A DNA stretch of 64,000 nucleotides. Origin: Eggerthella sp. GTDB lineage: Bacteria > Actinomycetota > Coriobacteriia > Coriobacteriales > Eggerthellaceae. The stretch lies in the NCBI GenBank assembly GCA_030540085.1, contig JAUNWY010000002.1:1-64000 (forward strand), written 5' to 3'. The notes under the pieces were generated by a model. It saw nothing but the letters and a program-made list of their open reading frames with translations. It was not told where the DNA came from and did not search any database. Positions 36,824 through 46,938 of this stretch are shown piece by piece; positions within the stretch are counted from its first letter, which is position 1; the number at the start of each line of letters is the position of its first letter. Made by a program: the position numbers and the translations under genes.

Positions 36824-37603
36824 TTAACCGCTAGCAAGCAGCTTCGAATAGATACGCGCATCTTCGTCAAGGAAAACGTTAAAGACCACATTGAGCGGAC
36901 AGCTATCGGCTTCAATCAAATCGGAAACAGTAGCGATAGCAATTTCCGCCGCCTGCTTCTGGGGAAAACCGAACACTCCCGTACTAATGCAGCAGAAGGC
37001 TATTGATTTCAAACCCTGGTTCTTGGCCAGGTCATAACAGCTGCGATAGCAGGCAGCTAATTGGTCACGGTGCGCGGCGGTTGGGGATCCATTCGCAATA
37101 GGTCCCACTGTATGGATAACGTATTTACAGGGTAGGTTATAGGATTTGGTTATTTTTGCCGACCCCGTTGGCTCGGGGCAACCCTGAGCTTCCATAAGGC
37201 GATCGCACTCATACCGAAGCTGTACCCCGGCAAACGTATGAATACAATTATCTATACAAAGATGATTTGGCGCCCAGCAACCCGTCATCTGGCTATTCGC
37301 CGCATTGACGATAGCATCGCACGCAAGCGCAGTTATATCGCCTTGCCACAGAAAAATATGGGGCCTTATCTGCATAAGCGAATCCAAATGAACAATGCCT
37401 CTTTCGGCATTGCGCTCCCTCAGATACTCGTCTTGCACACGGAGAATCTCAGCACTCGGCAATCCTGCAGCACGGATGTTTATGAGTCCACGAAGCAACT
37501 TGCGCTGCTCATCCGGCTTTTCCGGTATTTGGACAGAAGCACCATCTGGAAGCTCGTCTAAAAACGCCTTGATAAGAAAAAGCCTTCGTTCGGCCTGATT
37601 CAT
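36824..37603 (-). CDS. Zinc-type macrodomain protein (ADP-ribosyl hydrolase, SirTM-linked)
   Basis: 259 residues: about 70 residues of helical N-terminal extension, then a macrodomain with DITALACDAIVNAANSQMTGC (about 94-114) and CISTGVFGFP near residue 205. Inserted NHLCIDNCIHTFAGVQLRYEC supplies Cys and His residues that in SirTM-linked macrodomains hold a zinc ion at the active site. Such enzymes remove ADP-ribose from proteins modified by the partner SirTM. The start overlaps the sirtuin stop (ATGA), so both are cotranslated. It is the last gene of the ACGX peptide operon. Confidence 0.9.
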   Translation of the reverse strand: MNQAERRLFLIKAFLDELPDGASVQIPEKPDEQRKLLRGLINIRAAGLPSAEILRVQDEYLRERNAERGIVHLDSLMQIRPHIFLWQGDITALACDAIVNAANSQMTGCWAPNHLCIDNCIHTFAGVQLRYECDRLMEAQGCPEPTGSAKITKSYNLPCKYVIHTVGPIANGSPTAAHRDQLAACYRSCYDLAKNQGLKSIAFCCISTGVFGFPQKQAAEIAIATVSDLIEADSCPLNVVFNVFLDEDARIYSKLLASG

Positions 37604-38472
37604 TGCACCTTTTCCTCCCTCAGCTCAAGCAACGATGAAACCACTTGGGCAATATCGCCATCAATAACTATACTGCGATGCTCGATGGTCGGATGGCAAA
37701 TAGCCTCTCCACTATTCACTGTAGCAAATAACGCCTTGCTGTTCCTGCTGGTCATCTGCCAGAACGGATATTTAATGATGCCAGGGGTATTGAAGCCTAC
37801 GCCCAATTCAAGAAAAAGGACCTTCAGCCCCTTGTGGCGTCGGAGAAAATCCGAATAGCGGTCAGACGCTTGGTACCACCCCTCGTCCTGAACAAAGGTG
37901 CCATCGCACCGAAGATTGGTAGTAAGCGGACCGCCGCAATGGGGGCACAAAGGAATAAGTTCGCTCGAAATTGCCGTGTCCTCGATACTTGAGTGCATTG
38001 CACGCACCATCTGCTCATTATCGTATGTTTCTTGGCAACAAGGCTTGCTGCACTGGAATAGGCCGTAATCACCTTGCGTATAGAATAGACGCTTCTTGTC
38101 AAAACCAGCACGTTGGAATTGATGATCGACGTTAGTGGTCAGGACAAAATAATCCTTCCCTTCCAGCAACGCCCTCAGCTGCACGTACACTTCCCCTACG
38201 CCGCATTCGTAACGGTTGGCAAGAATCGAAGCACTCCAAAGACCCCAAAATTCCTCAAGCGTCGAAAAAGGATAAAAACCGGCAGAATAAAAATCGTGCA
38301 CGTCATATTTCTTTTCCCATGGCTCACACCATCGAGTGAAACGTTGACCGCTATAGCCAAATCCCGCAGATGCGGAAAGGCCCGCGCCAGCCCCCACCAC
38401 CACTGCATCGGCATCCTGAAGGGCCTCAGCAAGCTTTTGAATGCTTTTGGATTTCTGCACCATTGCCTCCAT
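37600..38472 (-). CDS. SirTM-type (class M) sirtuin, probable protein ADP-ribosyltransferase
   Basis: About 290 residues. The NAD-binding GAGAGLSASAGFGYSG is at 27-42. TTNVDHQF places Asn114 in the catalytic loop, and the general-base His of ordinary sirtuins is replaced by Gln133 in YTQGDYG; this Asn/Gln pair characterises SirTM, which transfers ADP-ribose rather than deacetylating. Zinc cysteines are in CSKPCC and CPHC. In staphylococci and streptococci SirTM modifies an Asp of lipoylated GcvH-L, but neither gcvH-L nor lplA is present here. I start at ATG 38472 behind GGAGG; the longest frame starts at TTG 38493. It lies 25 bases after the nitroreductase gene. Confidence 0.88.
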   Translation of the reverse strand: MEAMVQKSKSIQKLAEALQDADAVVVGAGAGLSASAGFGYSGQRFTRWCEPWEKKYDVHDFYSAGFYPFSTLEEFWGLWSASILANRYECGVGEVYVQLRALLEGKDYFVLTTNVDHQFQRAGFDKKRLFYTQGDYGLFQCSKPCCQETYDNEQMVRAMHSSIEDTAISSELIPLCPHCGGPLTTNLRCDGTFVQDEGWYQASDRYSDFLRRHKGLKVLFLELGVGFNTPGIIKYPFWQMTSRNSKALFATVNSGEAICHPTIEHRSIVIDGDIAQVVSSLLELREEKVQ

Positions 38473-38497
38473 CACGCCTCCACAATCATTCAAACCA

Positions 38498-39079
38498 TTA
38501 CCCTTCGACTATCCTCACGCGGCCTTTGCGGCGGGGTTTTGCCTGAGGGTATGGCCCATCGCAATACCCCAACGCAAGGAATGCTCGGCAGATATATCCC
38601 TCTGGAACCTGCCATTCGCTTAATAGCGCTTTTCCTTCTTCGCTTTCAAACGTCGTTTCAGCGCGGCTTACAATACAGCTTGCTATGCCAATGCTATGAG
38701 CTTCAAACGCCATAGCCTGAGCGATGATGAACGCGTCGGCAACACCGAAGACGAAATCCTTCTGGCAGAAAACGCACATTACCGTTGGCGCGCCGTAAAA
38801 CCCGTTCTTAATGCTGGGATCATCGATAACGCTTGGCTGCTCCTTGCTAACATACGAACCTATCAGGCCACCGCGATTGAACTTTGCCATGTTAAGCTTG
38901 CCGATTTTTTTGGCGAGATCTGCATTATTCACGGCGACAACCATGCTCCGTTGAGCACCACCCGCATTAGCGGAATAAATACCTGCTTCGATGATTTTGG
39001 CGAGATCTGCTCGGGAAACCTGTTGCTGGGTATATTTACGCACCGAACGACAGCCCTTGATGGTTTCAAGCATGTCCAT
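38498..39079 (-). CDS. Nitroreductase family FMN oxidoreductase
   Basis: About 193 residues. ETIKGCRSVRKYTQQQVSRADLAKIIEAGIYSANAGG (split at residues 5-42) matches the nitroreductase FMN-binding N-terminus, and GIASCIVSRAETTFES and FLALGYCDGPYPQAKPRRKGRV the C-terminal part. AAGGA precedes ATG at 39079, two bases after the radical SAM stop, so the genes are translationally linked. In this operon it may act as a tailoring oxidase or dehydrogenase on the peptide, as azoline-type dehydrogenases of this family do in other peptide clusters; that role is inferred. Confidence 0.85.
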   Translation of the reverse strand: MDMLETIKGCRSVRKYTQQQVSRADLAKIIEAGIYSANAGGAQRSMVVAVNNADLAKKIGKLNMAKFNRGGLIGSYVSKEQPSVIDDPSIKNGFYGAPTVMCVFCQKDFVFGVADAFIIAQAMAFEAHSIGIASCIVSRAETTFESEEGKALLSEWQVPEGYICRAFLALGYCDGPYPQAKPRRKGRVRIVEG

Positions 39080-40780: not shown

Positions 40781-40900
40781 CTACTGAGCGTCTGCCGTAC
40801 CGCAAGCCGGGGCTGCGGGGTCAGCCGTGCCGCAAGCGGGAGCAGGATCGGAAGCACCGCAAGATGCAAATGCTGCCACGTTGTTCAGATTCTCAGACAT
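40781..40900 (-). CDS. ACGX-repeat ribosomal peptide precursor, 39 residues
   Basis: A small gene with a perfect binding site (AAAGGAG) six bases before ATG at 40900 and a TAG stop at 40781. The leader is SENLNNVAAFAS; then three repeats CGASDPAPA, CGTADPAAPA and CGTADAQ. Each repeat has Cys-Gly two residues from Asp: Cys14, Cys23, Cys33 and Asp18, Asp27, Asp37. The repeats and the downstream radical SAM/SPASM enzyme show it to be the substrate of that maturase. No transport or protease gene follows, so the product may stay in the cell. The repetition, Ala/Pro linkers and lack of other cysteines suggest modification at Cys. Detected by reading the sequence, not by length. Confidence 0.85.
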   Translation of the reverse strand: MSENLNNVAAFASCGASDPAPACGTADPAAPACGTADAQ

Positions 40901-41019
40901 GAGATCTCCTTTCATGGTGGTTACGTTCATAACCGCTTTTACCGAGGCGCCCTCTACGCCCCGAAAGCATGATCTCTAACCGCCCGCCTACGCAAAAGAA
41001 GGCACTAAACTATCAGCCA

Positions 41020-41036
41020 GTTACCTAAAGGTAAGT
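41020..41036. promoter_or_regulatory. Candidate HxlR operator between the peptide operon and hxlR gene
   Basis: TTACCTAAAGGTAA (41021-41034) is an inverted repeat, extended to AGTTACC and GGTAAGT with imperfect flanks. It stands between the divergent HxlR regulator and the peptide operon, where it could repress both. The HxlR family recognises short palindromes of this form. Confidence 0.6.
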
Positions 41037-41088
41037 GGCTCAACAAGTGGGAAGTAGATGCCATAATGAAACCGTCGAAGGAGGCCCC

Positions 41089-41421
41089 ATGCTCACCAAG
41101 GAAGAACTTCCCCCATGTCCTGTAGCTACCTGCTTCCAGCTTTTTGGAAACAAGTGGAAGATCTACATCATCCAACAGCTCATCGAACAGCCCTACGGCT
41201 TCAATGCCCTGCAACGAGCCATTCCCGGCATCAGCCAAAAGGTGCTTTCCTCGAATCTGAAGGAAATGGAATCAGCCGGCCTGATTACTCGTACGGTAAT
41301 CCCCGAAACGCCCATCCGAACGGAATATGCCTTAAGCGATTTAGGAAACTCTCTCATGCCCATCATCGATTCGATGGTTGAATGGGGCACCGACTATCAA
41401 GAGCTTGTTAATAAGGCCTGA
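41089..41421 (+). CDS. HxlR family transcriptional regulator
   Basis: 110 residues, the usual size. The opening CPVATCFQLFGNKWKIYIIQQLIEQPYGFNALQRAIPGISQKVLSSNLKEM follows the HxlR winged-helix pattern, including Cys9 and Cys14, of which the first resembles the redox-sensing Cys of several members. The wing ends in TEYALSDLGNSL. GAAGGAGG precedes ATG at 41089. It is divergent from the ACGX peptide operon, with a palindrome between, and is probably its regulator, perhaps responding to electrophiles or oxidants. Confidence 0.9.
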   Translation: MLTKEELPPCPVATCFQLFGNKWKIYIIQQLIEQPYGFNALQRAIPGISQKVLSSNLKEMESAGLITRTVIPETPIRTEYALSDLGNSLMPIIDSMVEWGTDYQELVNKA

Positions 41422-42670: not shown

Positions 42671-43093
42671 ATGAGCATCAAAGAATTCACCACCGACGAG
42701 GCGCTGCTCAGCACGCCCTGCGAAAAAGCAACCGCCGAAGACGCTGCCGTGGCGCAGGATCTGCTTGACACCTTGGCTTCACTCGAAGGCGCAGCATGCG
42801 TGCATGCGAATCAAATCGGGGTAACCAAGAGCTTGTTCGCCTACCTTGACGAAAACGACAACCCCCACGTTATGTACAACCCCACCATTCTTATCGGATT
42901 GGTGCCCAAGAAGGAAACCGAAAGCTGCTTCACCCACGAAGAGCCCACCGTTAATACTCGTTATGAAAAGGTGAAGGTCTCTTACCAAGAGCTGGTTGAC
43001 GGTAAGCTCGTTTCTCGAAAGAAAGACTTCCAAGGCTGGGTCGCTCAGCTTATCCAACACATGGCAGACCACAGCAAGGGCAAGCTCGTTTAG
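42671..43093 (+). CDS. Peptide deformylase-like protein lacking the catalytic Glu
   Basis: 140 residues with a deformylase fold order: GAACVHANQIG (residues 40-50, usually GxGLAAxQxG), TESCFT (84-89, usually EGCLS) and QHMADH (129-134, usually QHExDH). Metal ligands Cys86, His130 and His134 remain, but the catalytic Glu is Met131. It can probably bind iron yet should be a poor deformylase. It might be a divergent active enzyme, a formyl-Met sensor or a pseudoenzyme. AAAGGA precedes the ATG; a TAGAAT -10 element lies at 42619-42624. Confidence 0.85.
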   Translation: MSIKEFTTDEALLSTPCEKATAEDAAVAQDLLDTLASLEGAACVHANQIGVTKSLFAYLDENDNPHVMYNPTILIGLVPKKETESCFTHEEPTVNTRYEKVKVSYQELVDGKLVSRKKDFQGWVAQLIQHMADHSKGKLV

Positions 43094-43889: not shown

Positions 43890-44047
43890 TGGATTGAAAC
43901 CCTAAACCTATTCATGAAATTGATGCTATAACACCAGATAAACCTATAATATTTATGATTTTCATATAAAGTGGCAGGTGAAGCGGTTTCTTGCGACATC
44001 AAAAACGCTATGTTCATACCTGTAAAGCTCTTAGCGAAAGGCCCGTC

Positions 44048-44560
44048 ATGGAATTTAAAGAAGTAGTTGAAGATCGTTACTCTTGCAAGAAGTTCAACGG
44101 CGAGCCCGTTGCCGAAAAGGCCCTGAAAGCTATCCTGGAAGCAGGCCGCGTAGCACCCACCGCAAAAAACCTGCAAGAACAGCATGTTTATGTGGTGCAA
44201 TCGTCCGAGAAGCTTACCCTTGTCGATGAGCTAACTCCTTGTCGCTACGGCGCCACCACGGTACTTGTTGTCGCCTTCAACAAGGAGAACGTTTTCACCT
44301 ATCCTGGCGGAACGCGCGATTCCGGCATCGAAGACGCCACCATCGTGGCAACGCACATGGTGCTCGCCGCAAAGAATGCCGGCGTAGACAGCTGCTGGGT
44401 AAACTTCTTCAACCCAGAGGAAGTGGCAGAAAAACTGGAGCTTCCCGAAAACGAAGAAGTGCTGATGATGCTCGACTTGGGCTACGCCGCAGAAGACGGA
44501 AAGCCGCTGCCGAACCATGCCAGCCGCAAGCCCCTTAGCGACACCGTAACCTACCTCTAA
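44048..44560 (+). CDS. Nitroreductase family protein
   Basis: About 170 residues. The N-terminal FMN-binding pattern EDRYSCKKFNGEPVAEKALKAILEAGRVAPTAKN and the C-terminal VLMMLDLGYAAED..PLPNHASRKP fit the family. It is short, near the smallest active nitroreductases. GAAAGG precedes ATG at 44048. It is not the same subfamily as the one at 38498. Substrate unknown. Confidence 0.88.
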   Translation: MEFKEVVEDRYSCKKFNGEPVAEKALKAILEAGRVAPTAKNLQEQHVYVVQSSEKLTLVDELTPCRYGATTVLVVAFNKENVFTYPGGTRDSGIEDATIVATHMVLAAKNAGVDSCWVNFFNPEEVAEKLELPENEEVLMMLDLGYAAEDGKPLPNHASRKPLSDTVTYL

Positions 44561-44754: not shown

Positions 44755-46938
44755 CTAGCGCTTCGATCCCTGCCTACGGATGCCTCCCTTGCTTCCAGCT
44801 GCCTTGTTCGGCCCACGGCCCTGCGGTTTAAACGAACCCCTCGAAGGACTTACCTTGCCCTTGTCAAAGTGGGCATCCCTGTGCGAACGGGCACGTCCAC
44901 CTAAAGCGTTCCGAGAACTGCTACCATTCGCCTTTCCGCCGGAAAGTGAAACCTCGCTTTTCCCAGCATGCTTTTCGCGCTGCGAAGACGCACCATTGCC
45001 GTACCGGCTCTTTCCCTTAGGATTTCCCGCAGCAGCAGTCCCTTTTGAGTGAGACCTCGCATCAGAGCTGCTCCCCTGTCGCTTGCCGCGCTGGCCCTTG
45101 GCCCCTTTAGCATGATTATTCGCTTTACGTGCCCCGCCCTTATCCGGACGCACCAGGCATTTCTCGTCGTACCCAATAAGGTCTTCCCTGCCAGCCGCCT
45201 TCAGAGCCTCGATAACCAGCCTGCGATTCTTTGGATTTCGGTATTGGATGAGCGCACGCTGCATCGCCTTTTCATGGGGTGTGCATGGGCAATAAACTTC
45301 TTGCATAGTGCGCGGGTCGACCCCCGTGAAATAGATACACGTGGAAATGGTGCTAGGCGTGGGGTAAAAATCCTGTACTTGTTCGGGGTTAAAGCCCATA
45401 TCGCGGCAGAACTCCGCAAGCTCAATGGCTTCTTTTAGAGTAGAACCGGGATGCGAACTCATAAGATACGGAACTACGAATTGCTTGAGCCCAAGTTTCT
45501 TGTTAGCTGCCTCAAAGCGCCGCACAAATTCCTGGTAGGTGTCGTTGTTCGGCTTCCCCATCACCCTAAGCACCTCATCGCTCACGTGCTCCGGCGCCAA
45601 ACGAAGTTGCCCCGAAACATGATACTGAGATAACTCGTCGATGAATTCATTTGCGTGCTTATCAAGAAGCACATAGTCAAAACGCAGGCCACTGCGCACG
45701 AACACTTTCTTGACGCCAGGCAAGCTGCGCAACTCGCGCAGCACATTCAGATAATCGCGATTGTCCACCTGCAAACTTCTACAAGGCTTCGGCGCCAAGC
45801 AACGCTTCCCACGACACGCGCCTTTGTCGAGCTGCTTGGGACAAGCGGGTTTGCGGAAGTTCGCCGTCGGACCGCCCACGTCGTTGATGTACCCCTTGAA
45901 ATCAGGATCTTGCGTGATGGCTTTCGCTTCCTCAACCAGGCTTTCTTTGCTGCGACTTTGAATAATACGGCCCTGATGGAACGCTAAGGAACAGAATGAG
46001 CACTCGCCAATACAGCCTCGGTTGCTGGTTAAGCTGAATTTCACTTCGCTGATTGCGGGAATGCCACCAGCCGCTTCGTACATGGGGTGGTAAGTTCGCT
46101 CATATGGCAAACGATACACCGCATCGAATTCCGAAGTAGAAAGCGGAGTGCTCGGTGGATTCTGGACAACGTACAGGTTGTCCTGCTCGTAAGGCTCAAC
46201 CAAACATTTGCCGCTAAATGGATCAAGGTTGCGGTATTGCAAACGAAAGCTTTCGGCATACTTCAGCTTATCCGCGCGCATGCTTTCGAAGGAAGGCAGC
46301 GAAACGTACCCTTCCATTACCCCCTCAAGATTATGGGAGCGGAACGCTGTACCCTCAATCCAGGTGATTTGACCGACAGGGATCCCCGCATTCAGGGCAT
46401 CGGCGATAGCAACGATCGATTTTTCGCCCATCCCGTAGCTGATCATATCTGCTCCGCTGTCGAGCAACACCGATCGCTTCAGCTTGTCGGACCAGTAGTC
46501 ATAATGAGCCAGCCGGCGCAGCGAGGCTTCCACGCCGCCCATGATAATCGGGGCATCTTTATAAGTGCGCCGAATTAGATTGCCGTAGACCACTGATGCA
46601 TGGTCGGGACGCAAGCCCATCTTCCCACCAGGAGAATAAAAATCGCGATTGCGATGCTTCTTTGCAACGGTGTAGTGACACACCATAGAATCCATGTTTC
46701 CTGCGCTGACCAGAAACGCCAAGCGAGGCTCGCCGAACACATCGATGCTGGCAGGGTCATTCCAATCAGGCTGTGCAACAATACCTACTTTGTAGCCATT
46801 CGCCTCAAGCAAGCGCGTGATGATAGCCATGCCAAAGGAGGAATGATCCACGTACGCGTCGCCGCAGACGTACACAAAATCGCACTGGTCCCATCCACGC
46901 TCTTCCATCTCTTTACGTGTTACTGGCAAAAAGGCCAC
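44755..46938 (-). CDS. YgiQ family radical SAM protein
   Basis: 727 residues. The N-terminal half has QCDFVYVCGDAYVDHSSFG; the radical SAM cluster CIGECSFC lies near residue 315 in LTSNRGCIGECSFCSLAFHQG. The TIM-barrel core continues to about 600. The C-terminal 130 residues are basic, low complexity, rich in Gly, Lys, Arg and Ser, probably for RNA binding. YgiQ proteins are widespread and their reaction is not established. GTG at 46938 follows GGAGG. Monocistronic. Confidence 0.9.
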   Translation of the reverse strand: MAFLPVTRKEMEERGWDQCDFVYVCGDAYVDHSSFGMAIITRLLEANGYKVGIVAQPDWNDPASIDVFGEPRLAFLVSAGNMDSMVCHYTVAKKHRNRDFYSPGGKMGLRPDHASVVYGNLIRRTYKDAPIIMGGVEASLRRLAHYDYWSDKLKRSVLLDSGADMISYGMGEKSIVAIADALNAGIPVGQITWIEGTAFRSHNLEGVMEGYVSLPSFESMRADKLKYAESFRLQYRNLDPFSGKCLVEPYEQDNLYVVQNPPSTPLSTSEFDAVYRLPYERTYHPMYEAAGGIPAISEVKFSLTSNRGCIGECSFCSLAFHQGRIIQSRSKESLVEEAKAITQDPDFKGYINDVGGPTANFRKPACPKQLDKGACRGKRCLAPKPCRSLQVDNRDYLNVLRELRSLPGVKKVFVRSGLRFDYVLLDKHANEFIDELSQYHVSGQLRLAPEHVSDEVLRVMGKPNNDTYQEFVRRFEAANKKLGLKQFVVPYLMSSHPGSTLKEAIELAEFCRDMGFNPEQVQDFYPTPSTISTCIYFTGVDPRTMQEVYCPCTPHEKAMQRALIQYRNPKNRRLVIEALKAAGREDLIGYDEKCLVRPDKGGARKANNHAKGAKGQRGKRQGSSSDARSHSKGTAAAGNPKGKSRYGNGASSQREKHAGKSEVSLSGGKANGSSSRNALGGRARSHRDAHFDKGKVSPSRGSFKPQGRGPNKAAGSKGGIRRQGSKR

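Follow-up and report, generated by a model that had tools for sequence, protein, structure and literature searches.

The closest named relative of the locus described here is the ACGX system, represented by the NCBIfam models TIGR04340 and TIGR04341, whose names do not mention linked HxlR, SirTM or zinc-macrodomain genes. Many such families were reportedly set up in a 2011 paper by Haft and Basu. No paper on ACGX peptides or on either model was found, nor one linking SirTM to radical SAM or HxlR proteins, in a searched literature that omits most subscription journals. PapB is described in passages of PMC9413430 as joining the Cys sulfur to the Asp beta carbon at CX3D motifs, and passages of PMC11002830 report that SbtM products lose four hydrogens. 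The known class M sirtuins (SirTM) modify GcvH-L, probably at Asp27, once it has been lipoylated (parts of PMC4518038), and GcvH-L is, according to parts of PMC11490716, no substrate for the zinc macrodomains of lone SirTM pairs; portions of both sources tie SirTM/zinc-macrodomain systems to oxidative stress.

In the window (the whole stretch of Eggerthella sp. DNA analysed, 64 kb in length) a peptide gene heads a tight six-gene operon opposite an HxlR-type regulator. The genes follow on the minus strand in the order peptide, PNPOx-ferredoxin protein (PNPOx-Fd), radical SAM enzyme, nitroreductase, sirtuin and macrodomain, with gaps of at most 28 bases (Table 1). Over residues 6-346 the enzyme scored 525.1 bits with TIGR04340 ("radical SAM/SPASM domain protein, ACGX system"), whose cut-off is 400, and the gene order, peptide then enzyme, is that of the ACGX system. 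The difference lies in the peptide, which has three units and gave no match to TIGR04341 (cut-off 28 bits) up to E 10. The window gene is a divergent member of the named, uncharacterised ACGX system.

The PapA/PapB ranthipeptide system (freyrasin, with Cys-X3-Asp thioethers) is similar in the repeated Cys-X3-Asp of its substrate, found in all three window units, and in its SPASM-type radical SAM enzyme, but the window enzyme scored 60.2 bits with the PapB model NF047865 (cut-off 340), CX3C doublets occur, and the operon partners differ. SbtM, whose substrates are Cys-containing peptides, is the nearest other family by sequence (TIGR04082, 173.6 bits, cut-off 350); the match covered only positions 198-515 of 516, and the N-terminal third of the model is absent from the window enzyme. 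Membership of the PapB or SbtM family was rejected because both cut-offs were missed; the AhbD model gave 128.7 bits. The enzymes of two relatives, L007 and L008, also had SbtM as second-best family. The extended SirTM operons, which include GcvH-L and LplA2, are matched by the adjacent SirTM and Cx4HxC macrodomain genes with flavin-type oxidoreductases alongside, whereas the window operon lacks GcvH-L and has a Cys-repeat peptide and a radical SAM enzyme instead.

Table 1. Coordinates of the peptide operon and its regulator in the window.
Feature	Position	Strand	Remarks
ACGX-like precursor peptide gene	40781..40900	minus	39 aa, three Cys-Gly-x-x-Asp units
AAAGGAG ribosome-binding site	40906..40912	minus	5 bases (ATCTC) ahead of peptide ATG
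PNPOx-Fd, 203 aa	40141..40752	minus	pyridoxamine-oxidase-like flavin-type domain and two 4Fe-4S ferredoxin motifs; Pfam PNPOx_N, Fer4
Radical SAM/SPASM enzyme, TIGR04340 rSAM_ACGX, 347 aa	39082..40125	minus	two genes downstream of peptide
Nitroreductase-family protein	38498..39079	minus	Pfam PF00881
Class M (macrodomain-linked) sirtuin, SirTM	37600..38493	minus	best PDB match 5a3a, 2.2e-63
Zinc macrodomain (ADP-ribosyl hydrolase)	36824..37603	minus	NF003163, 340.5 bits, cut-off 272
HxlR-family transcription regulator, divergent	41089..41421	plus	Pfam PF01638
Inverted repeat CACTTACCTTTAGGTAACTG, probable HxlR operator	41018-41037 (plus-strand coordinates)		136 bases ahead of peptide ATG

The peptide frame has 39 codons, from the ATG at 40900 to the stop at 40783-40781, and its product is MSENLNNVAAFASCGASDPAPACGTADPAAPACGTADAQ. 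The sequence-only reading had described a threefold Cys-Gly-x-x-Asp repeat with Ala/Pro linkers, and this is what the frame encodes, the units being CGASD, CGTAD and CGTAD and the linkers Ala/Pro-rich. The AAAGGAG site reported by that reading is present, but it lies five bases before the ATG and not six. An alternative in-frame ATG at 40930 would give a 49-aa peptide; the 39-aa start was preferred because the peptides of relatives begin at the same MSENLxNVAAF.

A search of all six frames of the window gave the threefold, closely spaced CGxxD pattern at this one place, and 200 block-shuffled windows did not contain it. Compared with the peptide of Collinsella L009, the 39 codons showed 18 synonymous and 5 non-synonymous differences (pN/pS 0.10). 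A value of 0.15 was obtained over 31 non-overlapping peptide pairs of at least 75% identity, a filter that depresses pN/pS generally, and the window-L009 pair is therefore the one relied on. The 39-residue frame is a real protein-coding gene under purifying selection, as the sequence-only reading had held; that reading had named loss of the frame or repeats in relatives as evidence to the contrary, and L009 keeps both. A chance frame was ruled out by the shuffles, the synonymous excess and the presence of an upstream peptide at nearly all related loci.

Relatives of the enzyme were sought in 84,980 species genomes, which gave 546 stretches; the best 80 of these 546 were fetched and, with the window, make up the 81 loci referred to below. 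A Cys-Gly repeat frame was found upstream of the radical SAM gene at 79 of the 81, spanning Coriobacteriia and Clostridia, so that the proposed comparison with short frames ahead of homologous radical SAM/SPASM genes, like the suggested pairing of ACGX peptides with such enzymes, was borne out. Two of the 79 frames (L012 and L017) are cut by a contig end, and no believable Cys-Gly repeat frame was found upstream of the enzyme gene at L052 and L083. Peptide counts were made on 75 peptides (74 non-identical), leaving out L012, L017, L021 and L078, to which the script that assigned starts gave none. The assigned start was too far upstream for L030 and L036, adding two Cys, and too late for L011. 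The start codon was ATG in 73 of the 75, and a purine-rich upstream site with 5 or 6 matching bases preceded 71.

The 74 non-identical peptides from the best 80 loci and the window contain 380 Cys, which make up 8.5% of residues. Gly follows 374 of them, and 375 are preceded by Ala, Gly or Ser. At +4, 229 have an Asp and 117 a further Cys (CX3C), and some clostridial units have a Glu further on in place of the +4 Asp. The CX3C stretches continue as CX3CX3[DE] in 106 of the 117, and the unit is therefore CGxxD, often with a second CGSA ahead. The last unit is CGx(1-2)[DE] in 72 of the 74 peptides, and the number of CG units ranges from 2 to 8. Two loci named Collinsella aerofaciens, L009 (5166-5300) and L010 (5056-5301), differ in their CG units (4 in the first, 8 in the second), a count that shifts fast while the motif stays; both peptides start with MSENLENVAAFASCG and end in CGAADAQ.

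TIGR04341 was passed by clostridial peptides (L011, L049, L082 and L087 among them) with 29 to 78 bits. Scores below the cut-off of 28 were given by L009 (14.6), L010 (11.8) and L047, from Eggerthellaceae (17.9), and L013 had no match. A six-frame search of the window's own genome with this model returned only a 14.1-bit stretch with stops, elsewhere. The window peptide was rejected as a TIGR04341 member, the 28-bit threshold not having been reached. By these scores the coriobacterial peptides are a variant outside TIGR04341, and the window peptide is too diverged for the model.

The nearest enzyme relatives found were those of L009 and L010, 80 and 79% identical to the window's. A tree built from 79 enzymes placed the window's with these two Collinsella rows (99/94), nested in a clade of nine actinobacterial rows (100/99). 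L045, labelled Alistipes, fell among Ruminococcus rows and may be a mis-binned contig. The enzyme starts directly with the radical SAM domain; a match to PF05402, the PqqD-like recognition domain of RRE-dependent RiPP systems, was absent from its own genome and from 8 of 18 other enzyme-bearing genomes, incomplete ones included.

A structural model built from 22 sequences had a mean pLDDT of 87.2 and a pTM of 0.86, with residues 18-34, which include part of the cluster motif, below 50. The top match of this predicted fold in a second-look aligner was CteB, which makes ranthipeptide thioethers (5wgg; Z 24.5, rmsd 3.1, 300 residues), followed by the sulfatase maturase anSMEcpe (4k39, Z 24.1), ChlB (9gm3, Z 23.3) and SuiB (5v1t, Z 23.2); the lead of CteB over the sulfatase maturases amounts to a tie. 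Since 5wgg aligned only from its residue 92, the enzyme has no counterpart of the N-terminal part of 5wgg. No PapB or SbtM entry was among the structure matches listed, which is uninformative either way. By family and fold the enzyme belongs to the SPASM class of peptide maturases, and the peptide is very probably its substrate.

Genome G035 (L008) carries, at 715-2532, a 605-residue radical SAM protein with 371.6 bits to TIGR04340, under the cut-off of 400. The gene just after it, at 2615-2884, encodes a leader peptide of the Nif11 type, which scores 35.8 bits (cut-off 32.3) and ends in the Cys-rich tail GGCVCICCAHNCARICAR. This pair may represent a sister system that uses a different kind of precursor.

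Partner genes were counted at all 81 loci, with separate models for the nitroreductase and PNPOx-Fd. HxlR was present at 70 loci (69 divergent), SirTM at 58, the nitroreductase at 56, PNPOx-Fd at 46, the zinc macrodomain at 39, a quinone-oxidoreductase-like gene at 20 and DUF1848 at 18; at least one of the nitroreductase, PNPOx-Fd and quinone-oxidoreductase-like genes occurred at each. Where at least 3.5 kb past the enzyme was available (56 of these loci), the counts were HxlR 50, SirTM 45, nitroreductase 40, PNPOx-Fd 35 and macrodomain 32. The recurrent DUF1848 protein scored 343 bits to PF08902 at L029 (8282-9217).

No exporter or peptidase, named by Pfam or by reading, was found in the clusters common to at least 7 of the 81 loci; one ABC-ATPase-like cluster occurred at 6, in mixed orientation. 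This agrees with, but does not establish, the intracellular product that the sequence-only reading suggested because no export or protease gene follows the peptide. Three further genes of the window lie beyond the regulator. The plus-strand gene at 42671-43093 encodes a peptide-deformylase-like protein (NF006670, 83.9 bits, under the cut-off of 162) in which HMADH was seen by eye for the usual HExxH, so that it is possibly not an ordinary deformylase. The gene at 43991-44560 (plus) codes for another nitroreductase-like protein, whose NCBIfam matches are all weak, and the one at 44755-46938 (minus) for a radical SAM protein of the YgiQ family (830.7 bits).

HxlR-family proteins are known as sensors of oxidants or electrophiles. 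The motif GTTAC-N6-GTAAC, with at most one mismatch, was found between HxlR and the peptide in 39 of 61 regions from the best 80 loci and the window (shuffles: mean 0.99, maximum 3 of 61). Of 18 enzyme-free SirTM operons, 11 likewise have it next to HxlR (shuffles: mean 0.46, maximum 3). The inverted repeat of the window is probably a conserved HxlR operator.

The sirtuin has QG where others have the catalytic HG, in the window as TQG at 139-141, and Q140 and G141 were kept in 52 of 52 aligned relatives. The macrodomain gene overlaps the sirtuin stop; the best PDB match of its product was 8rsi, and its loop, C109-WAPN-H114-L-C116, has the Cx4HxC zinc-loop motif given in section 4 of PMC11490716.

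The association of SirTM with the enzyme was examined in an even sample of 341 genomes from one class (that of the L060 genome, Clostridia by records), with SirTM accepted at E up to 1e-60. The enzyme was above cut-off in 15 genomes and SirTM was present in 59: in all 15 enzyme genomes and in 44 of the other 326 (Fisher p 7e-13), the latter including G645, which has a sub-threshold enzyme and no SirTM. In 12 of the 15 the two genes share a contig and are no more than 5 kb apart, the exceptions being G760, G780 and G796. Of 59 genomes of Coriobacteriia-side relatives 5 carry the enzyme, and SirTM was present in 2 of these and in 19 of the remaining 54 (p 0.59). Genome G032 (one contig, 99% complete) has peptide and enzyme and no SirTM at 1e-60, and of 22 genomes without SirTM at the enzyme locus, 13 carry one elsewhere and 9 do not. 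A strict rule that the enzyme always comes with SirTM was rejected on G032, G035, G042 and these 9 of 22 genomes. SirTM is a frequent, non-obligatory partner of the enzyme, there being no SirTM excess among the Coriobacteriia enzyme genomes. Enzyme and SirTM distances were correlated (r 0.62, n=53; 0 of 500 permutations).

A GcvH-family gene was not found in 17 of the 19 enzyme-bearing genomes searched, that is, in the window's own genome (80% complete) and 16 of 18 others. GcvH-L was rejected as a partner, as no GcvH occurred in the own genome or among the operon genes. GcvH was also not found in 41 of the 44 Clostridia SirTM genomes without the enzyme; being scarce with and without the enzyme, its absence is general in these bacteria and not specific to the peptide system. 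At 40 clostridial SirTM loci without the enzyme (L154-L193) the zinc macrodomain was present at 39, HxlR at 19 and PNPOx-Fd at 12, and no believable repeat peptide was found, the hit at L170 being an overlapping non-coding frame. The idea that this peptide serves every lone SirTM pair was rejected, 44 of 59 Clostridia SirTM genomes having no enzyme, and SirTM/macrodomain pairs without the enzyme must therefore have other substrates. The peptide and its enzyme thus seem to have been added to a more widespread stress operon of HxlR, SirTM and macrodomain.

In the mechanism proposed here the enzyme, with electrons from the flavin/ferredoxin protein, would cross-link each Cys thiol to a side-chain carbon of the Asp at +4. 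Such a step, by analogy with PapB on Cys-X3-Asp, may well occur and is put forward tentatively. The modified peptide would stay in the cell and serve, with the flavin oxidoreductases, an HxlR-switched response to redox or electrophile stress; this role is judged probable, and cross-linking and role jointly make a somewhat more tentative proposal than cross-linking by itself. SirTM and the zinc macrodomain, in bacteria that have them, might also switch the peptide through reversible ADP-ribosylation, which is considered rather unlikely. An alternative reason for keeping the Asp would be a role as acceptor of ADP-ribose, which was examined by comparing peptides with and without SirTM. The Asp following a Cys outside CX3C was kept in 36 of 39 cases in genomes without detected SirTM, a group of nine genomes and G032 in which all but G032 are drafts and a SirTM may have been missed, and in 152 of 174 at SirTM-linked loci. 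As the Asp is equally kept with or without SirTM, its function does not depend on SirTM and is most simply explained by the radical SAM reaction. We infer that the carboxylate would remain free if the cross-link were made through the beta carbon, so that the cross-link and ADP-ribosylation ideas are compatible.

Several findings count against a PapB-like step: the enzyme is nearer to SbtM than to PapB in score, the structural lead of CteB is a tie, the 117 CX3C Cys have no Asp at +4, and some clostridial units carry a later Glu in its place. If a thiooxazole or similar heterocycle were instead formed from each Cys and its neighbour, as with SbtM, and the Asp guided recognition only, the place of SbtM as second-best family (in L007 and L008 as well) would be expected, the Ala, Gly or Ser before 375 of 380 Cys would suit cyclisation, and the CX3C cysteines would be handled like the rest. 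This is nevertheless thought quite unlikely, as the SbtM cut-off is missed, a third of that model is absent and the kept Asp at +4 is left unexplained. The high Cys content and the redox operon would also suit a peptide that buffers thiols or binds metal without being modified, the radical SAM enzyme having some other target; the joint occurrence of peptide and enzyme at 79 of the 81 loci, the peptide-maturase class of the enzyme, and a strict C-G-x-x-D spacing unlike a simple metal-binding array make this very unlikely. A secreted bacteriocin or signal peptide is highly improbable: a short leader with a repeated core, as in many modified peptides, and a variable number of CG units would agree with it, but no shared exporter or peptidase gene was seen in clusters at 7 or more of the 81 loci, and the peptide is accompanied by oxidoreductases, a redox-type regulator and enzymes of ADP-ribosylation.

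Another reading gives the peptide the place of lipoyl-GcvH-L: the enzyme would add a sulfur group, SirTM would ADP-ribosylate a nearby Asp and the macrodomain would remove the modification under stress. The SirTM and zinc-macrodomain genes at 45 and 32 of the 56 loci with enough downstream sequence (best 80 of 546 and the window), the presence of SirTM in 15 of 15 clostridial enzyme genomes against 44 of 326 (p 7e-13; 12 of 15 within 5 kb), the distance correlation and the finding that 17 of 19 enzyme-bearing genomes searched have no GcvH-family gene all point to it. In the known system lipoylation likewise precedes ADP-ribosylation of the GcvH-L Asp (parts of PMC4518038), and lone-pair zinc macrodomains do not act on GcvH-L (parts of PMC11490716). 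The Coriobacteriia counts (2 of 5 against 19 of 54) and G032 speak against it, as do the 44 of 59 Clostridia SirTM genomes without the enzyme, 41 of which also lack GcvH; Asp conservation is independent of SirTM, and shared ancestry alone can yield the distance correlation. This replacement of lipoyl-GcvH-L is regarded as unlikely, though not far-fetched, and the preferred proposal remains Cys-to-Asp cross-linking with a role in the stress response.

The six-gene operon, the HxlR regulator with its probable conserved operator and the SirTM/zinc-macrodomain pair beside ACGX genes are new here; the regulator, this pair and the CX3D spacing did not figure in the sequence-only reading. The genomic partners suggest a redox-stress role, Cys-Asp cross-links and a tie to reversible ADP-ribosylation for a peptide family that is widespread in common gut bacteria, and for specialists the point of note is its conserved association with SirTM, zinc macrodomain and HxlR. 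As the lone-pair zinc macrodomains are inactive on GcvH-L, the peptide becomes a concrete substrate candidate where both co-occur. It is doubtful, yet conceivable, that the radical-SAM-modified Cys-Gly-x-x-Asp peptide is a substrate of orphan SirTM/zinc-macrodomain pairs in gut Clostridia and some Coriobacteriia. If it is, the peptide would be a genetically encoded, enzyme-built stand-in for the lipoyl carrier, which ADP-ribosylation of its Asp residues would switch on and off within an HxlR-controlled stress operon.
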